A stretch of 64,000 nt of DNA from positions 992,001 through 1,056,000 of the forward strand of contig NZ_CP053661.1 in assembly GCF_013177315.1 (NCBI RefSeq), given 5' to 3'. This document shows, in pieces, positions 1,040 through 60,707 of this stretch; the first letter of the stretch is position 1; each line of letters starts with the position of its first letter. Both the position numbers and the translations under genes were made by a program. Origin of the DNA: Thermoleptolyngbya sichuanensis A183 (GTDB taxonomy: Bacteria > Cyanobacteriota > Cyanobacteriia > Elainellales > Elainellaceae). The notes under the pieces are model-generated. The model had not been told where the DNA came from. It did not search any database and worked only from the letters and a program-made list of their open reading frames with translations.

Positions 1040-1126
1040 GAGTGGGGGTTGGGGGTTTGGGTTGCAGGGGGATCGCTGCATCCTAAACCCCTATTTCAGA
1101 ACTCTGAATACCTTAGGGCTTACACA

Positions 1127-1216
1127 AGGGCTTACACAGTTGGGCAATTTCTCGTGGGCGCAGCCCGCGAGAAATTGCCCAAAATCCAGCTAGCTTATCG
1201 CAAGTGCATAAGCCCT
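1127..1216 (+). repeat. 90-bp inverted-repeat element, copy A
   Basis: First of seven 90-bp copies in the window. The outer ends are AGGGCTTACACA and TGCATAAGCCCT, which are imperfect inverted repeats. A central hairpin of about 18-bp arms has a 3-base GCA loop, with GGGCAATTTCTC pairing to GAGAAATTGCCC. A second partial left end (AGGGCTTACACA, starting at 1115) sits directly upstream. It lies between the convergent pgk and transaldolase genes, where the hairpin could also end transcription. Confidence 0.85.
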
Positions 1217-1304
1217 GACCGAAACGTCCCGGCGAGTTGTGTTTGATGGAGGGCGATCGCCGGGATGTTGCTTAGGATGCAAGTGACTAGAAACGTTCGG
1301 GCAG

Positions 1305-2474: not shown

Positions 2475-2754
2475 CCGTTTCTCCTGGCAAGTTCAAAAGG
2501 GTCAGGTTGGATTTTCAAGGAATCCGTCGGTTAATCCGTCGGTCTATGAATAGCGTCTGGTGTTGCGTCTAGGCCGATCCTACTCTGAGATTTCTGATGG
2601 GGATTGTAGAGTACGGAAAGCCTTAATCTGCGTGTCGGAGAATTCATGCCTGAGCAACCGCGTGGATGGGTCGAGCGGAGGGAAAAGGTGGGACAAAGGT
2701 AGGGCAAAGATGGGGCGATCGCCCGCCCCGATTTTTCCTTTTCCCGATTCACCA

Positions 2755-2844
2755 AGGACTTACGCAGTTGGAGAATTTCTCGCGGGCGCAGCCCGCGAGA
2801 AATTCTCCAAAACCCAAAGAGCCTGTCGCAAGTTCGGAAGTCCT
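2755..2844 (+). repeat. 90-bp inverted-repeat element, copy B
   Basis: The ends are AGGACTTACGCA and GGAAGTCCT. The central palindrome has arms GGAGAATTTCTCGCGGGC and GCCCGCGAGAAATTCTCC around GCA and is perfectly paired. It lies between the 5' end of the transaldolase gene and the 3' end of the next minus-strand gene. The rest of the 408-bp gap (2475-2882) holds no gene that I recognise. Confidence 0.87.
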
Positions 2845-2882
2845 GTCACGATTGTGGAGCGAGTCGGGAAAACTGTCCCCCA

Positions 2883-7190: not shown

Positions 7191-7220
7191 GGTGAGGGGT
7201 AAGGATTTGGGAATACAAGT

Positions 7221-7310
7221 AGGACTTACGCACTTGCGACTCAACTTTCTGAGTTTTGGACGATTTCTCGCGGGCGTCGCCCGCGAGAAATCGTCCAACT
7301 GCGTAAGTCA
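7221..7310 (-). repeat. 90-bp inverted-repeat element, copy C
   Basis: Reverse-orientation copy with end AGGACTTACGCA and a central hairpin GGACGATTTCTCGCGGGC / GCCCGCGAGAAATCGTCC around the loop GTC. The last bases (GTAAGTCA) have one change from the usual end. It lies 30 bp upstream of the preferred dprA start, and its reading frame is open into dprA, which artificially lengthens that gene. Confidence 0.86.
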
Positions 7311-7405
7311 TAACGAGAATACGGGAGTTTGGGTAGGCGCAGGCCACAGCGCTCATGCCTGATACCTGCATCTCTAACTTCCAGTATTCTCCGGCAGGCT
7401 CCGGC

Positions 7406-12497: not shown

Positions 12498-12613
12498 CGG
12501 CCGGCCCCTCGCTTCAGATGCGCTCGTTCTAGGCGCACTCGTTCCAGACGTGACAATCCATTGCAAACTCTTTTCAAGACTCAGGCCAGCCTGCAAGTCT
12601 AATAGTCACACTT

Positions 12614-12703
12614 AGGACTGACACAGTTGGACAATTTCCTGCGGGCGCAGCCTGTAAGAAATTGTCCAAAGTTTAGACATCTTATCGTAAGTGCGTAAGT
12701 CCT
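12614..12703 (+). repeat. 90-bp inverted-repeat element, copy D
   Basis: The ends are AGGACTGACACA and TGCGTAAGTCCT. The outer hairpin pairs are kept (GGACAATTTC / GAAATTGTCC), while the inner stem has several mismatches (CTGCGGGC against GCCTGTAA). This is the most decayed forward copy, yet it is still exactly 90 bp. It lies between the WG-repeat gene and the thioredoxin-fold gene. Confidence 0.8.
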
Positions 12704-12750
12704 GACACTACCAGTCACACGTTTCGTATCAGCATTTGGTGAACCCCGCT

Positions 12751-14492: not shown

Positions 14493-14624
14493 ATGGACTC
14501 TGCAACAGTTCTTAGTATTTCCGTTACCGCGATCCTGATCGGCATCACCGGAGCCGCGATCTACACCTCCTTTGGCCCGCCGTCTAAGCAGTTGGACGAT
14601 CCCTTTGAAGACCACGAAGATTAG
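14493..14624 (+). CDS. psbN: Photosystem II assembly protein PsbN
   Basis: Protein of 43 residues starting at ATG 14493 with MDSATVLSISVTAILIGITG, a single N-terminal membrane helix, then YTSFGPPSKQLDDPFEDHED. The FGPPS and D-D-P-F-E-D-H segments are diagnostic of PsbN, a thylakoid protein needed for assembly or repair of photosystem II rather than a subunit of it. It is divergent from psbH, as is usual. The stop codon TAG ends at 14624, exactly where a 163-bp mobile element begins. Confidence 0.96.
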   Translation: MDSATVLSISVTAILIGITGAAIYTSFGPPSKQLDDPFEDHED

Positions 14625-14787
14625 GGCACTAATATACTTCACGCAGTAATTTCAGCCCTCACCCTAAATCCCTCTCCCAGAGCGGAAGAGGGACTTCAAG
14701 CCTGTATCTGGCTCCCCTTCTCCCCGCTTGGGAGAAGGGGGTGGGGGATGAGGGCAGTGAGTTTGCTGTTTCAAGTATGTCAGTGCC
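14625..14787. mobile_element. 163-bp miniature inverted-repeat element, copy 1
   Basis: The ends GGCACTAATATACTTCA and TCAAGTATGTCAGTGCC are imperfect inverted repeats. The inside contains a C/T-rich hairpin region (CTCCCCTTCTCCCC ... GGGAGAAGGGGG). AAGATTAG precedes it and AAGATTAA follows, which is an 8-bp target-site duplication with one change. It has no coding capacity. A second full copy lies at 33859-34021 and a fragment at 29651-29700. Confidence 0.85.
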
Positions 14788-14792
14788 AAGAT

Positions 14793-14936
14793 TAAGAGCT
14801 AATTTGTAAAGGAGCCTGAAAGCCTTGTTAATCAAGGATTTCCGAGAAACCGCTTTTCCTGGGCAAACATGACCTCAAAGCCACACATGCCAAGAGTTTC
14901 AGGCTTCTTAAGATTTGCTTCATAAATTAGCTCTAA
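14793..14936. mobile_element. 144-bp miniature inverted-repeat element, copy 1
   Basis: The element is bounded by TAAGAGCTAATTT and AAATTAGCTCTAA, which are inverted repeats. By eye it is identical, base for base, to the copy at 59038-59181. There is no coding capacity. Its right end overlaps the alpha-mannosidase gene and supplies that gene's stop codon (14933-14935). It begins five bases after the end of the 163-bp element, so the two elements form one block between psbN and the mannosidase. Confidence 0.88.
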
Positions 14937-17900
14937 GGCTTGGGCGCAGGCTGGAGCGTCAGGCGGAGGGTAAGAACCTGCCACGGCTGGAGGGCGATCG
15001 CCCCTCTTTCATTCTCTACGGCATTGGCATCTGCTAGCAGATTGGCATTTTCTAGCAGATTTGTGGGGACGGCGCGAACCACCTGGGCGATCGCCCGTTG
15101 TTCTGGAGAGCCACCTCCTGGAGAGCCACCTCCTAAAAAGCGAATTTCTCCTGACGCTCCCTGCGACTCGTAGCACCGCATAATCCAGTCTCCGGAGCCG
15201 TCTTCAGCAGGCTTGAGGGCGCTCACCACGGCTGAGCCAGCGTCGAGGTGGAGCAGCGAACCCACAGGCGGCAATGCAGCCTGGGAAGGCGTGGCGGTTG
15301 CCGGGTCAACGACGCGCACCCGCAAAGGCTGGTTTTGCTCGTAGCCGTGCTGCACCGTTTCTGCCGCCTGCCAGCAGCCGGCGTGGGGATACAGCGCGTA
15401 GGTGAATTCATGATGCCCCAAATCGGCAGCGGGGTTCGGCCACGCTGCGCCGCGCAGCAGCGTTAGGCGAATTTGGCTAGGGCGACTGTCGTAGCCATGC
15501 TTGCTGTCGTTGAGCAGGCTCACGCCATAGGGAACGGCCTCCGACGCATCGGAACTGGTCAGGTCGGCCCAGCGCAGGGCAGGCACTTCCCACTGAGCCG
15601 CCTCGACAGAATTCTTCGGCTGGGTGGGTCGCTGGATCACGCCCCCTGGAATTTCGCAGGTCAGGAAATCGGCCGTTAGGTTTAGCGGAAACGCCGCTTT
15701 CACCAGGACGTGTCGCTCTTGCCAATCGACCCAGGTACGGATTTGCAGCAGTGGCGACCCGGTTTGCAACTCGTAGCGCTGGCGAAATGTAGACCGACCG
15801 AGCGATCGCACGATCTCCACTGTCTGGGCGATCGCCCCATTGTTCACCCAGCGAATCGCCTCAAGCTGCGGCGGCGGCAAGGGATAGCTTTCGTAGGCTG
15901 GGTCGATATTCCACGCATCCCAATATTGCCCACCATCTTGAAACGCCTGAAGCTGATTGCCCGGCCCCGCCAGCACCTCCCGCTGCTGCGCCTTATCGAA
16001 CACGCTAGCCAGATTGCCCGTAGCCGGGTCAACTGCCACCCGCAGAAACTCATTTTCCAGAACGAAGGAAGCCGTCGGCTGGAGCGGCTCCGCAGCCAAA
16101 GAGTCCCCCTCAACTGGGCACAGCCAGAAGCAGGCATAGCCCAGCGCAGAAACGGCTTCGGCCCGAAACGCAATCTCCCAATGCTCGTCGTCATCCGCCT
16201 CCAGCACCCACTGAGCAGCGATCGCCCGTCCGTCCAGCCCGCGAACCTCCCAGTTCAATTTTCGATTTTCGATTTTCGATTTTCGATGTTCTTGACCCTC
16301 CATTTTTCGTTTTTCGTTTTTCGTTCTTCGTTCTTCCCCCCCCACTCGCACCACCGCCGAGCGTGACCAGTTTAGCGGGTTAAACACCAGCACCGCCCTG
16401 GCCTGGGAATGGGGCGCGGGCGGTAGGGCAATGTAACGGGCGATCGCCCCCAGCGCTGCATCAATCGCGTCTTTGGCGCATTCTGCCGCCGCCGCCCACT
16501 CTCGATTGGCCTCTGCGTACACATCAGGAATCGCCGATCCCGGCAAAATATCGTGAAACTGGTTAAACAGCACCTTTTTCCACGCAGTTTCCAGGGCTGT
16601 TGCAGGGTAGGGCAGTCCTAGGGCCAGCGTCGTCATGGCTGACCACAGTTCCGCTTCGGAGAGCAGCGCCTCACAGCAGCGGTTCCACCGTTTTTGGTCG
16701 GCATGGGTGGTGTAGCAGCCCCGATGGAATTCGAGGTAGAGATCGGTCTGCCAGCAGGGGGGTTGGGGCGTTGGGGGGTTGACGTTGACACTGGGATCAT
16801 CCCATTCCCGCAGCGCTTCTAGGTAGGATTGTGCCGTGGAAAACTGGAGGCGCGGGAAGAAGGGCGATCGCCCCCAGCGCTGGGCCAGGTGCAGCATATC
16901 GCGGGTAGGGCCGCCGCCGTGGTCGCCCACGCCAATCAGCCAGAGGGCATGGGGATAGCCCGTTTTTTGCTCGAACTGGGTGGCGTAGCGGGCCATCTTG
17001 AGTGGGTCGAAGCCTTCGCCGATGGGGGCAGAGTGCAGGCTAAAAATGCGGCTGCCGTCGGGCCCTTCCCACCAAAAGGCTTCGTGGGGAAATTCGTTGG
17101 TGTCGTTCCAGCGGAGCTTTTGCGTAACGAAGAATTCCACACCGCCCTGGCGCAAGAACTGGGGCAATTGCCAGCAAAAGCCAAAGGTGTCGGGCAGCCA
17201 GGCGATCGCGCTGATGCGCCCAAATGTTTCCTGCACATAGCGCTGGCCGTAGAGAATCTGGCGGGCGATCGACTCGGCGCTGATCAGGTTCAATTCCGGC
17301 TCCACCCACAGCCCAGCGGCCACCTCCCAGCGCCCTGCCGCCACCTGCGCCCGAATTGCCTCAAACAGTGCCGGACGGTTCGTTTCCATCCAGGCATAGA
17401 GCGCGGGCGAAGAGTGGGTAAAGATCAGGTCTGGAAACTCCGCCTGGAGACTCAACACCGACTTGAACGTGCGCTCGGCCGCGTCCCAGGTTTCCGCCAC
17501 GGGCCACAGCCAGGCCAGATCCAGGTGCGCGTGTCCCAACAGGGAAATCTGCCGCTGCCGAATCCACTCGCCAAAGGGCAACAGGCGCTGCCGCAGGTCG
17601 CAGAGCGCTTGGTCAAAGGCGGCTCGGTTGGCAAGCTGGCTCCAGTCGAGCGGGGCTACGGCGGCCGCCAGGTCTCCTAGCTGCGCTGGTGCAAAGGTTT
17701 CGACGTAGTGCTGCACGACATCCAGCTCGTCTGCCACAAATCCCGGCTCTGGGCAAGGCTCCAGTCCATACTGGGGGCGCTCGTAAATACAGTGCGATCG
17801 CACTAGGGCCCCGTCGTCATGCCCCGGACTGACCAGCCGCAGCGCCACCGGAATCCGCTCTCCTGGCAGCACCTGCTCCCGCAGCACGACCCGCGCCGAG

Positions 17901-29428: not shown

Positions 29429-29543
29429 GGTTTGAGAACTGCGGGAACAAGAAAAGCTCTATGGAGAAAGGCTGAAAGCGCGATCGCGGGAATTCCATGC
29501 CTGAACTCTCCCACAACATTATTCCGTAATCTCAATTCCGTTA

Positions 29544-29633
29544 TGACCTACGCACTTGCGATTAAATTTTCTGGGTTTTGGAGGATTTCTCGCGGGCGCA
29601 GCCCGCGAGAAATCCTCCAACCGCGTAAGTCCT
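29544..29633 (-). repeat. 90-bp inverted-repeat element, copy E
   Basis: Reverse-orientation copy. The central hairpin is GGAGGATTTCTCGCGGGC / GCCCGCGAGAAATCCTCC around GCA and is perfectly paired. The outer ends are changed (GACCTACGCA against CGCGTAAGTCCT). It lies upstream of proB. Nearby at 29651-29700 is a fragment of the 163-bp element (CTGGCTCCCCTTCTCCCGAC and onwards). The remaining intergenic sequence to 30143 includes the tandem word GCAATGCTCTGTGT near 30018-30050, and no gene. Confidence 0.86.
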
Positions 29634-29650
29634 ATCCGTAATTCGCAGAT

Positions 29651-29700
29651 CTGGCTCCCCTTCTCCCGACCTGGAAGAAGGGGCTGGGGGATGAGGGCAG
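29651..29700. repeat. Fragment of the 163-bp element
   Basis: Fifty bases match the internal part of the 163-bp elements at 14625 and 33859 with a few changes. Both inverted-repeat ends are absent, so this is a relic. It sits 17 bp from a 90-bp element. Confidence 0.7.
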
Positions 29701-33801: not shown

Positions 33802-33858
33802 CCATCTTTTCCCGGGCCTTCCCAAAACCATTTCTCCCAGACTGAGTGCCCAAATTTG

Positions 33859-34021
33859 GGCGCTAGTATGCTTCACGCAGCAATTTCAGCCCTCACCCTA
33901 AATCCCTCTCCCAGAGCGGGAGAGGGGCTTCAAACCTATGTCTGGCTCCCCTTCTCCCCGCTTGGGAGAAGGGGTTGGGGGATGAAGGCAGTAAGTTCGC
34001 TGTCTCAAGTATGTCAGTGCC
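33859..34021. mobile_element. 163-bp miniature inverted-repeat element, copy 2
   Basis: Same family as 14625-14787, same length. The ends are GGCGCTAGTATGCTTCA and TCAAGTATGTCAGTGCC. A perfect 8-bp target-site duplication CAAATTTG flanks it (33851-33858 and 34022-34029), which fixes the element boundaries. It lies between the PerM-like gene and the next small gene. Confidence 0.92.
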
Positions 34022-34139
34022 CAAATTTGCCCCAAAACGCCATAAAACGTTAAAGATGAAATAAGTTACCGGGGGAGATGGGTATAAATGCGATACCATC
34101 TCACGTAACCTGCAAACTGTGTAAAGTGCAATACGGTCA

Positions 34140-37792: not shown

Positions 37793-38001
37793 GGCTTTTC
37801 CCAACCAAACGCAACGTCATCATCGGGCAGACGCAAATCCCGCAGTTCTCTACCCAACAGATCCATCCTGGCGCGTTTATGGGCTGAAAGGGCTGATTTT
37901 GCATTAGGGATAGCCCTACTGAGGAGGGGGGAAAGCCGATGGAGGTTTTGGATTTTGGGTTTTGGATTTTGGGTGCTGGATTTTGGGTGTTGGATTTTGG
38001 C

Positions 38002-38091
38002 AGGACTTACGCACTTGCGATAAGTCTTCTGGGTTTTGGACGATTTCTCGCGGGCGCAGCCCGCGAGAAATCGTCCAACTGCATAAGTCCT
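38002..38091 (-). repeat. 90-bp inverted-repeat element, copy F
   Basis: Best preserved reverse-orientation copy. The ends are AGGACTTACGCA and TGCATAAGTCCT. The hairpin is GGACGATTTCTCGCGGGC / GCCCGCGAGAAATCGTCC around GCA. It lies between two divergent genes (37034-37792 and 38348-40120). The 555-bp gap also contains tandem ATTTTGGGT words at about 37947-37995, a weak duplicated TTCAAGCGCATCTGG near 38320-38349, and no gene. Confidence 0.88.
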
Positions 38092-38347
38092 ATTTAGATT
38101 TTGGGGTTTGGATGTTGGAGGCGTTTGGCTGGAGCGTTGAAGGGAAAAGGGATTGGGCGCTCGTTCTTTGAGCCGTCAAAGTATTTCTTTACAAAAAATT
38201 CTGTTTTCGATTGTGAAAGCTGTATGAAGCTTGCAGTTCCCGTTACATTTTTTCACGCCTGAGCCAAAAAGAAATCTGTGCGGTTCTCTGATGCGTACTT
38301 TGGCGTAGGGCACACAAATTCAAGCGCATCTGGTTCAAGCGCATCTG

Positions 38348-52882: not shown

Positions 52883-53092
52883 GCCCATAGCTCCTGAGTT
52901 GGAGCCGGAGGGCTTGGTCAGAGGAGCTTTTGGGCCAGCGTCCCCTACGAGAAATCAGGGGTTTCCAGAGATGTGTCAGGCAGTCAGGCCCATAGCTCCT
53001 GAGTTGGAGCCGGAGGGCTTGGTCAGAGGAGCTTTTGGGCCAGCGTCCCCTACGAGAAATCAGGGGCTTCCAGAGATGTGTCAGGCAGTCAG
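52883..53092 (+). repeat. 105-bp direct repeat, two units
   Basis: Two adjacent units, starting at 52883 and 52988, are nearly identical over 105 bp (GCCCATAGCTCCTGAGTTGG ... GTGTCAGGCAGTCAG). The visible changes are at the start of the units and in CAGGGGTTTCC against CAGGGGCTTCC. The length is a multiple of three, and both units keep the frame. Its origin is not recognised. Confidence 0.9.
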
Positions 53093-58949: not shown

Positions 58950-59037
58950 TGGTCTTGCAAGAGTCTTGCCAAACCTCAAGATTGATTCTTGAATCGTCGC
59001 TTGATACAGTGAGATTTTCTAGTGAGATTTCCTGCTT

Positions 59038-59181
59038 TAAGAGCTAATTTGTAAAGGAGCCTGAAAGCCTTGTTAATCAAGGATTTCCGAGAAACCGCTT
59101 TTCCTGGGCAAACATGACCTCAAAGCCACACATGCCAAGAGTTTCAGGCTTCTTAAGATTTGCTTCATAAATTAGCTCTAA
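59038..59181. mobile_element. 144-bp miniature inverted-repeat element, copy 2
   Basis: By eye identical to 14793-14936, in the same orientation. The ends TAAGAGCTAATTT and AAATTAGCTCTAA are inverted repeats. It lies between the membrane-anchored gene and pyrD, 89 bp after the stop codon of the former. The lack of any visible change between copies 44 kb apart indicates recent movement. Confidence 0.88.
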
Positions 59182-59191
59182 TTCTTGCTTT

Positions 59192-60486: not shown

Positions 60487-60537
60487 AAACCCCAACCTCC
60501 TTGCAGAGATGACTCATTTCGCTCACTTAGAAAGTCT

Positions 60538-60627
60538 AGGACTTACACACTTACGATAAGCTTTTTGGATTTTGGACAATTGCTCGCGGGCCCAGCTGGT
60601 GAGAAATTGTCCAACTGCGTAAGTCCT
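60538..60627 (-). repeat. 90-bp inverted-repeat element, copy G
   Basis: Reverse-orientation copy with ends AGGACTTACACA and TGCGTAAGTCCT. The outer stem pairs are kept (GGACAATT / AATTGTCC). The inner stem is disturbed (GCTCGCGGGC against GCTGGTGAGAA, loop CCA). It lies between pyrD and the DUF3531 gene. Confidence 0.8.
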
Positions 60628-60707
60628 GAAAGTCGTATGCTGAATGAGGTATGAGATGCACCTTTCCCCTCACCTCATTTCTCTGATACTCCAACACCTC
60701 AATCCCC

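Follow-up and report, generated by a model that had tools for sequence, protein, structure and literature searches.

In yeast genes, template switching at inverted repeats has been described as leading both to the homogenisation of the arms and to the inversion of the spacer (in the part of PMC8604942 on which we draw), and in RNA genes it has been put forward to explain compensatory changes and, in rare cases, loop inversion (in the part of PMC8794818 on which we draw). Small inversions in plastid hairpins have been presented as repeated flips (PMC6824564, likewise in part). Here we analyse a 90-letter repeat of the hot-spring cyanobacterium Thermoleptolyngbya sichuanensis A183 that occurs seven times in the window, by which we mean the whole stretch of 64,000 nucleotides under study. 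The repeat is a MITE. We hold with good, though not full, confidence that it is a non-autonomous element moved by transposases of the IS701 type (NCBIfam NF049921), and that its palindrome is being rewritten by template switching linked to replication.

Copies, ends and target sites

A covariance model was built from the seven window copies and run against the host genome, a single contig of 5,525,100 bp. Each of the 150 listed copies matches the whole model with an E value of at most 1.5e-17, 61 of them lying on the plus strand and 89 on the minus strand. A scan for the hairpin, covering 1,256,081 of the 5,525,100 bases (the surroundings of the copies and 40 spaced samples), returned 177 hairpins, 27 of them outside the 150 listed copies; among these 27, ends resembling the terminal inverted repeats (TIRs) are present on both sides in 22, on one side in two and on neither in two, while the remaining one lies at an edge. 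The genome therefore carries at least 172 copies (the 150 listed and the 22 further hairpins with both ends), and the seven that had been noticed from the letters are the window's share of these. A 44-bp remnant that has kept both TIRs and lost the hairpin lies at chromosomal positions 253556-253599 (L171 501-544), in the same genome as the intact copies.

The window copies are given below with their terminal bases, their target-site duplications (TSDs) and, where it was found, the empty site in the relative genome G001.

1126-1217, plus strand: copy 1, hairpin at 1140-1182 with loop GCA; no clear TSD
2754-2845, plus strand: copy 2, hairpin at 2768-2810 with loop GCA; TSD TCACC/TCACG (4 of 5 matching)
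7220-7312, minus strand: copy 3, 91-bp form, hairpin at 7256-7298; TSD ACAAG/ACGAG (4 of 5 matching); empty site in G001
12613-12704, plus strand: copy 4, hairpin at 12627-12669; TSD ACACT at 12608-12612 and 12705-12709; empty site in G001
29542-29634, minus strand: copy 5, 91-bp form, hairpin at 29578-29620; TSD TCCGT, exact
38001-38092, minus strand: copy 6, hairpin at 38036-38078; TSD TTTGG/TTTAG (4 of 5 matching)
60537-60628, minus strand: copy 7, hairpin at 60572-60614 with a decayed inner stem; 6-bp direct repeat AAAGTC

All seven copies named in the preliminary description are present, three on the plus and four on the minus strand. Its statement that each measures exactly 90 bp has to be amended for the copies at 7221-7311 and 29543-29633, which are 91 bp long, and the duplications that it called unclear are exact over 5 bp in two window copies, 6 bp long in one, matching at four of five positions in three and absent in one. 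It had also proposed a search for empty sites in relatives: of the four window sites that were compared with G001, those of copies 3 and 4 are empty there, with the alignment spanning the junction. For copy 1, the corresponding region of G001 has diverged and gives no match. The intergenic region of copy 2 contains in G001 a different, decayed copy (L212 2817-2902) with a tail of the G001 type and other flanks, a result of the model search that rules this site out as an empty one. Copy 1 is preceded by a tandem duplication of its left TIR at 1115-1126, and a similar partial duplication stands before the chromosomal copy at 469451.

The same structure extends over the genome. The unit comprises 92 bp with its terminal bases and is bounded by the TIR YAGGACTTACGCA, which is 12-13 bp long in the 150 listed copies; one extra base belongs to each end, namely a T before AGGACTT in 131 of the 150 copies and a G or A after AAGTCCT in 146. 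Without the terminal bases, 119 of these copies measure 90 bp, 23 measure 91 bp, five 89 bp, two 87 bp and one 88 bp. An exact 5-bp TSD flanks 87 of the 150, against a mean of 0.89 in shuffles, and with up to one mismatch the 5-bp flanks agree in 114, against 4.4 when shuffled; a 6-bp duplication at the same offsets was seen in seven. The element is short, numerous, devoid of coding capacity and mostly intergenic. Its insertions avoid genes, 24 of the 150 sites falling inside an open frame of at least 450 nt in comparison with 240 of 300 control points placed 450 nt away. Near-identical copies with intact TSDs are also present in G001, and these sequences point to recent movement.

Other repeats occur in the window. 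Those at 14792-14942 and 59037-59187 form a 151-bp pair that is 99% alike, and those at 14620-14793 and 33854-34027 a 174-bp pair that is 90% alike; a 52-bp core is found again at 29649-29700. These 151-bp and 174-bp repeats are possibly further pieces of mobile elements. Positions 52883-53092 hold a 105-bp tandem duplication (99% alike) within an open frame.

Full-length relatives and the wider group of ends

In genome G018 the ends TAGGACTTACGCAGTTG enclose a unit of 1,045 bp (1,047 bp with the terminal bases) that is flanked by the TSD TTCCA and encodes a transposase of 332 amino acids. This transposase (the L161 protein) obtains 363 bits against the NCBIfam model NF049921 (IS701 family), whose cut-off is 250, and 79 bits against the older model NF033540, whose cut-off of 150 it does not reach. 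Around homologs of the transposase, 14 of 30 loci are bracketed by TIRs when bracketing is defined by AGGACTTACGCA ends with up to two mismatches, and these 14 correspond to 13 distinct elements of 1,045-1,140 bp, all in the same bacterial family and some with broken transposase genes. Seven of the 13 have an exact 5-bp TSD. One further homolog locus, with a 1,380-bp TIR pair, was left out of the count. Classical IS701 elements generate TSDs of 4 bp; in the MITE and in the full-length elements the TSD is of 5 bp, and the class that we claim is the group filed by NCBI under IS701 and no more.

A protein search found no homolog of the G018 transposase in the host genome or in G001, and in the two genomes of the genus the model NF049921 yielded nothing above its cut-off, the seven weak 24-bit matches in the host genome being those of another element. 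Because of these two results, the MITE family of the host and of G001 may be orphaned, or else may be served by a transposase that such searches do not recognise. A parent element within the host genome was also considered and set aside, since none of the 30 DDE_Tnp_1 loci checked out of 44 is bracketed by TIRs with two mismatches allowed. From the ends and the TSD length only, we infer that a transposase of the NF049921 type would be the one moving this MITE. The preliminary description had kept the repeat apart from a simple MITE on account of its fixed length and unclear duplications, a separation that gives way before the TIRs, the 5-bp TSDs, the two empty sites and the full-length insertion sequences with the same ends.

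The ends are shared far beyond the host. Exact AGGACTTACGCA...TGCGTAAGTCCT pairs spanning 76-106 bp are present in 74 of 388 genomes from the class; for the reversed control, the matches listed include none. Among 85 elements listed for 25 other genomes, 70 have a length of 90-92 bp, and the count takes in all but one of the 86 places listed beyond the host genome and G001. A scan for lengths of 90-120 bp returned at least 114 stretches, and the 80 that were examined comprise 52 labelled as cyanobacteria (including one Caenarcanales bin) and 28 with other labels, among them Poribacteria and Burkholderiales. These 80 stretches contain 126 elements, which fall into 43 clusters whose interiors are unlike, and 91 of the 126 show an exact 5-bp TSD, compared with 1.4 when shuffled. 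The modal length is 90-92 bp in 13 of 40 clusters (p 6e-5 against a flat spread), and a constraint other than the interior seems to act on the length. A helical-phase limit is said to have been described for IS50 by Goryshin in 1994; by analogy, a limit of that kind is a possible cause of the shared length. Helical periodicity of the lengths (about 91, 101, 110 and 120 bp) was tried as well and remains no more than a lead, being strong in the raw counts but not significant once redundancy and the 90-92 peak are removed (p 0.07-0.12 if each interior cluster contributes a single value, p 0.16-0.42 under looser de-replication).

Elements of 114-116 bp in G009 (L226, L232, L237) have the same TIRs around a different, imperfect and GC-rich palindrome. 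Different cyanobacterial genomes repeatedly have, enclosed by these TIRs, interiors such as GTAGGGGTAATTCATGAATTACCCCTAC, CATTGCGA...AAGCAATC and CACAGAGGCACAGAG (L303, L319, L320 and others), some of which resemble repeats known elsewhere in bacteria. Elements of 100-101 bp with this TIR are found in a bin labelled as a Klebsiella pneumoniae MAG (L346, L356, L377), a label that may be wrong, and the same length is found in Undibacterium and Burkholderiales records. In Poribacteria the lengths of elements with this TIR are 119-120 bp in L335, L336, L344, L359 and L364, and 90-92 bp in L339, L341 and L379.

Paired changes, loop inversion and the candidate origin

Columns 14-33 of the repeat pair with columns 56-37, forming a hairpin with 20-bp arms and a loop of 3 nt. 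In the stems of the 150 listed copies we counted 109 compensated cells of 16 types, where permutations have means of 34 and 6.2 and maxima of 46 and 11. The paired variants of the stem, the central claim made from the letters, consequently stand, and they stand beyond chance (16 types against 6.2). Pairs 19 and 20 supply 83 of the 109 cells, and without these two pairs there remain 26 compensated cells of 12 types, as compared with 4.9 and 3.8 in the permutations. The 12 pairs of the TIRs served as a control and gave three compensated cells of two types against 2.5 and 2.2, which places the covariation of the outer ends, also claimed in the preliminary description, at the level of chance. The permutations leave the relatedness of the copies in, an effect that is offset by the TIR control and by paired types that occur in single copies. 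Paired transversions include C-G to G-C in 11 copies, as well as two kinds that were seen in one copy each, A-T to C-G and T-A to G-C, and the copies of G001 carry paired transversions different from those of the host.

Changes on one side of the stem were examined by kind, by arm and by zone. They amount to 75 G-U cells and 75 A-C cells, and to 87 on the left arm and 90 on the right. With G-U and A-C equally frequent, the stem gives no indication that one strand or the other is under pressure to pair as RNA; such a symmetry is not automatic, as one-sided changes in the TIRs comprise 66 G-U and 36 A-C. By zone, pairs 14-20 have one-sided changes in 48 of their 1,050 cells, pairs 21-26 in 10 of 900 and pairs 27-33 in 120 of 1,050, while the TIRs have them in 159 of 1,800. 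The inner stem beside the loop (pairs 27-33) is not efficiently kept, since its one-sided changes equal or exceed those of the TIRs, and homogenisation is inefficient there. At least one stem pair is not Watson-Crick in 89 of the 150 listed copies.

The loop reads GCA in 68 and TGC in 61 of the 150 listed copies, these being reverse complements, and ACA, GTA, TGT, TAC or others in the remaining 21. Tests on the loop use the GCA and TGC copies only, that is 129 of the 150 listed copies or 148 of the 177 hairpins, the 19 such hairpins outside the 150 being used whatever their ends. When each copy is compared with its nearest neighbours, namely the copies most alike outside the hairpin, 59.9 of 129 share the loop, against 64.1 when shuffled (sd 4.9). 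Arm variant 20 is shared by 99.6, against 66.2 when shuffled, a value reached by none of 500 shuffles. Arm variants 19 and 25 give no signal (88.4 against 90.2 and 113.2 against 119.6); either the neighbour test is weak for rare variants, its power being limited, or these two variants also recur. In G001, where 43 of at least 145 copies were examined, mostly the top-scoring ones, and the loops were counted in the 40 of 90 bp, 11 otherwise identical copies have the loops GCA (8), TGC (2) and ACA (1), a group of 10 otherwise identical copies has TAC (4), GCA (3) and TGC (3), and a group of four has TGC (3) and GCA (1). Elements with other arms vary in a similar way, those of G004 having TTC in L223, L239, L243 and L246 and GAA in L229 and L234, and those of G016 having TAA in L220, L227, L238 and L242, TTA in L233 and L245 and TGA in L248. 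A folding program for DNA assigns the same energy to both loop directions. GCA, GAA and GTA are loops of the GNA type that are stable in DNA if closed by C-G, a property that could bear on a bias in direction.

Read on the plus strand of the chromosome, the loop is not evenly distributed. The best arc in a scan, 465,624-1,535,538, has GCA in 32 of 34 copies as compared with 45% elsewhere, and was equalled in none of 200 permutations. Independently of this, only one of 40 samples of 20 kb (800 kb of 5.5 Mb) had three or more DnaA-like boxes: six TTTTCCACA boxes start at 414,820-414,997 and one at 416,061 (L443, 414820-416069). Judged from these boxes, the cluster at about 415 kb is a candidate for, and probably is, the replication origin. 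Within 1.2 Mb of the cluster the plus-strand loop is GCA in 36 copies and TGC in three on the right side, and GCA in nine and TGC in 24 on the left side (Fisher p=1.4e-8). In the frame of the copy itself, plus-strand copies of the right arc have 16 GCA and no TGC, and minus-strand copies two GCA and 16 TGC (p=7e-8); taken by itself, the left arc gives a weaker result (p 0.10). Near the cluster, the direction of the loop on the chromosome hence varies with the side of the probable origin and not with the orientation of the copy; a loop tied in this way to the lie of the element in the chromosome cannot simply have been inherited from a source copy.

The position of the switch was sought over the whole circle in steps of 20 kb. 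With spans of 1.2 Mb, a width picked after the arc scan, the best switch point is at 420 kb, and none of 300 permutations reaches this maximum. Spans of 2.7 Mb also give 420 kb, those of 0.6 Mb give 440 kb and those of 0.8 Mb 460 kb; the best point is 320 kb with 1.0 Mb (where the cluster itself outscores every step), 300 kb with 1.5 Mb and 60 kb with 2.0 Mb. The same scan of the chromosome shows no such switch for the strand of the element, for arm variant 20 or for the loop in the frame of the copy. Copies with a perfect inner stem have GCA to TGC ratios of 15:0 on the right and 3:13 on the left, and those with inner mismatches 17:2 and 6:10. Among the 19 informative copies outside the 150, six lie within 1.2 Mb, and five of the six agree with the polarity. 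Beyond 1.2 Mb from the cluster no overall polarity is found (p 0.62 in the frame of the copy), the right side being reversed in sign from +1.2 to +2.0 Mb (4:11) and then 12:7 from +2.0 to +2.8 Mb. Any dependence on replication direction is therefore pronounced up to 1.2 Mb from the probable origin and inconsistent farther out, all of this in one genome.

Two other correlates of loop direction were tried and rejected. Smoothed GC skew from the 40 samples, considered as an independent marker of the replichores, has no significant link with the state of the loop (circular-shift p 0.23-0.29). The direction of neighbouring genes, for which 132 of 148 copies could be classed, has no link either where the neighbouring open frames are in tandem, with GCA to TGC ratios of 22:21 for two plus-strand frames and 18:17 for two minus-strand frames. 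Between divergent frames the plus-strand loop is GCA in 21 copies and TGC in seven, and between convergent frames 13:13, a difference for which we have no explanation.

Proposed template switching, its rivals and described systems

Paired changes together with an inverted spacer at an inverted repeat are the footprint of template switching, and both are present here, in a palindrome whose 20-bp arms and 3-nt loop are a favourable substrate for it. In the reading that we prefer, the replication polymerase would switch template between the arms of the palindrome. A switch within one strand would copy one arm onto the other and so produce apparently compensatory changes, and a switch between strands would invert the loop; since the leading strand is not equivalent to the lagging one, a single loop direction would win, and a copy would thereby indicate which way its replication fork travels. 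The preliminary description had left the choice between selection on pairing, in RNA or as a DNA cruciform, and the copying of one arm from the other. It is the copying of arms that is best supported, because G-U and A-C changes are balanced in the stem and because the loop is inverted in about half of the copies and follows the polarity near the origin, whereas selection on pairing alone misses the loop inversion.

A wider proposal, which we advance tentatively and with somewhat less than even confidence, is that each copy would be a reversible recorder of fork direction that maps the origin and the replichores and, separately, that the group sharing these TIRs would be gauged in length (mode 90-92 bp) by the joining of its ends. 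The loop would have to be turned in place often enough to reach the state set by the leading or lagging strand, and the scattered loops of a single assembled genome would then map its origin, its replichores and the zones without a fixed fork direction. As regards length, the transposase would have to join two ends at a set helical distance.

Other processes could account for part of these observations. Selection on RNA structure, under which the repeat would be transcribed and its hairpin kept for mRNA stability or termination, can appeal to a strong predicted fold (z between -4.9 and -11.1 across the seven window copies) and to covariation in the stem that is real. We nevertheless give it hardly any credence, as Rfam has no match at its gathering thresholds anywhere in the window, G-U is no more frequent than A-C in the stem (75:75), the repeat is found in both orientations (61 plus, 89 minus), and 89 of the 150 copies contain a stem pair that is not Watson-Crick; nor would it predict a loop inversion that follows a polarity, and the direction of tandem genes is without effect. 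Compensatory variants could also be no more than inherited differences between subfamilies, with no process acting from arm to arm, and the share of pairs 19 and 20 in the compensated cells (83 of 109) is what this would lead one to expect. Such an explanation appears very improbable given the excess that persists without these pairs (26 cells and 12 types against 4.9 and 3.8) and the paired transversions in single copies, different ones being seen in G001.

A requirement for DNA structure in transposition, for instance a hairpin that brings the ends together, would allow only paired variants to multiply. It would suit the elements of relatives, which are nearly equal in length, have the same ends and hold in the same place a palindrome of other sequence with a 3-nt loop, and it would suit the shared paired variant (arm variant 20) that defines subfamilies. 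Elements with the same ends and without an obvious long palindrome, as judged by eye, multiply too, however, and loop inversion and its polarity around the origin are left unexplained; we consider this somewhat unlikely as the explanation, although such selection can act alongside template switching. The loop direction might instead have been fixed once, at insertion, by transposition coupled to the fork, which would likewise link the loop, the orientation of the element and the side of the origin. This we regard as rather improbable, for it needs an intermediate in which the hairpin alone is turned and not the ends of the element, and copies with inner mismatches are less polarised on the left (6:10 against 3:13), a weak contrast that fits continuing turnover. 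Template switching linked to replication thus remains the reading that we favour.

Covariation is routinely taken as the mark of a selected RNA structure, and here real covariation is better explained by a mutational process, in a large natural set that brings its own internal controls (the TIR pairs, G-U against A-C, and loop inversion). If the polarity holds, the loops of the repeat can be read as markers of fork direction in this cyanobacterium, where the sampled GC skew is weak, and the bias of template switching between strands can be measured in a natural setting. The length shared by MITEs of unlike interiors leads in turn to a testable claim on how these transposases bring their ends together.

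In the open-licence literature we found no cyanobacterial paper on this TIR and no description of this MITE or of fork-polarised natural template switching. The mechanism of template switching is already known, and the frequently turning, origin-polarised loop is a variant of it for which we found no description. The MITE shares the TIR core AGGACTTACGCA and the 5-bp TSD with the insertion sequences of 1,045-1,140 bp recognised by NF049921 (IS701 family) in the same bacterial family; unlike these and MITEs in general, it has a long palindrome as its interior, and no full transposase was found in its host. It resembles the type II (orphan) MITEs of Anabaena sp. 90, which are cyanobacterial and have ends matching no insertion sequence of the same genome (in the part of PMC3542288 used here, where folded structures are drawn), a likeness at the level of description. 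As in the small inversions of plastids, the orientation of a loop between short stems changes repeatedly, which makes it a weak phylogenetic marker there; the plastid cases are single loci followed across species, with no link to fork direction in the part of PMC6824564 used here. There is a likeness in process with template switching at perfect inverted repeats, where arms are homogenised and short spacers inverted. The parts of PMC8604942 and PMC8794818 used here list events one by one (ten spacer inversions in yeast), whereas in this MITE about 150 similar palindromes lie in one genome, and their loops are frequently inverted and polarised around a probable origin.
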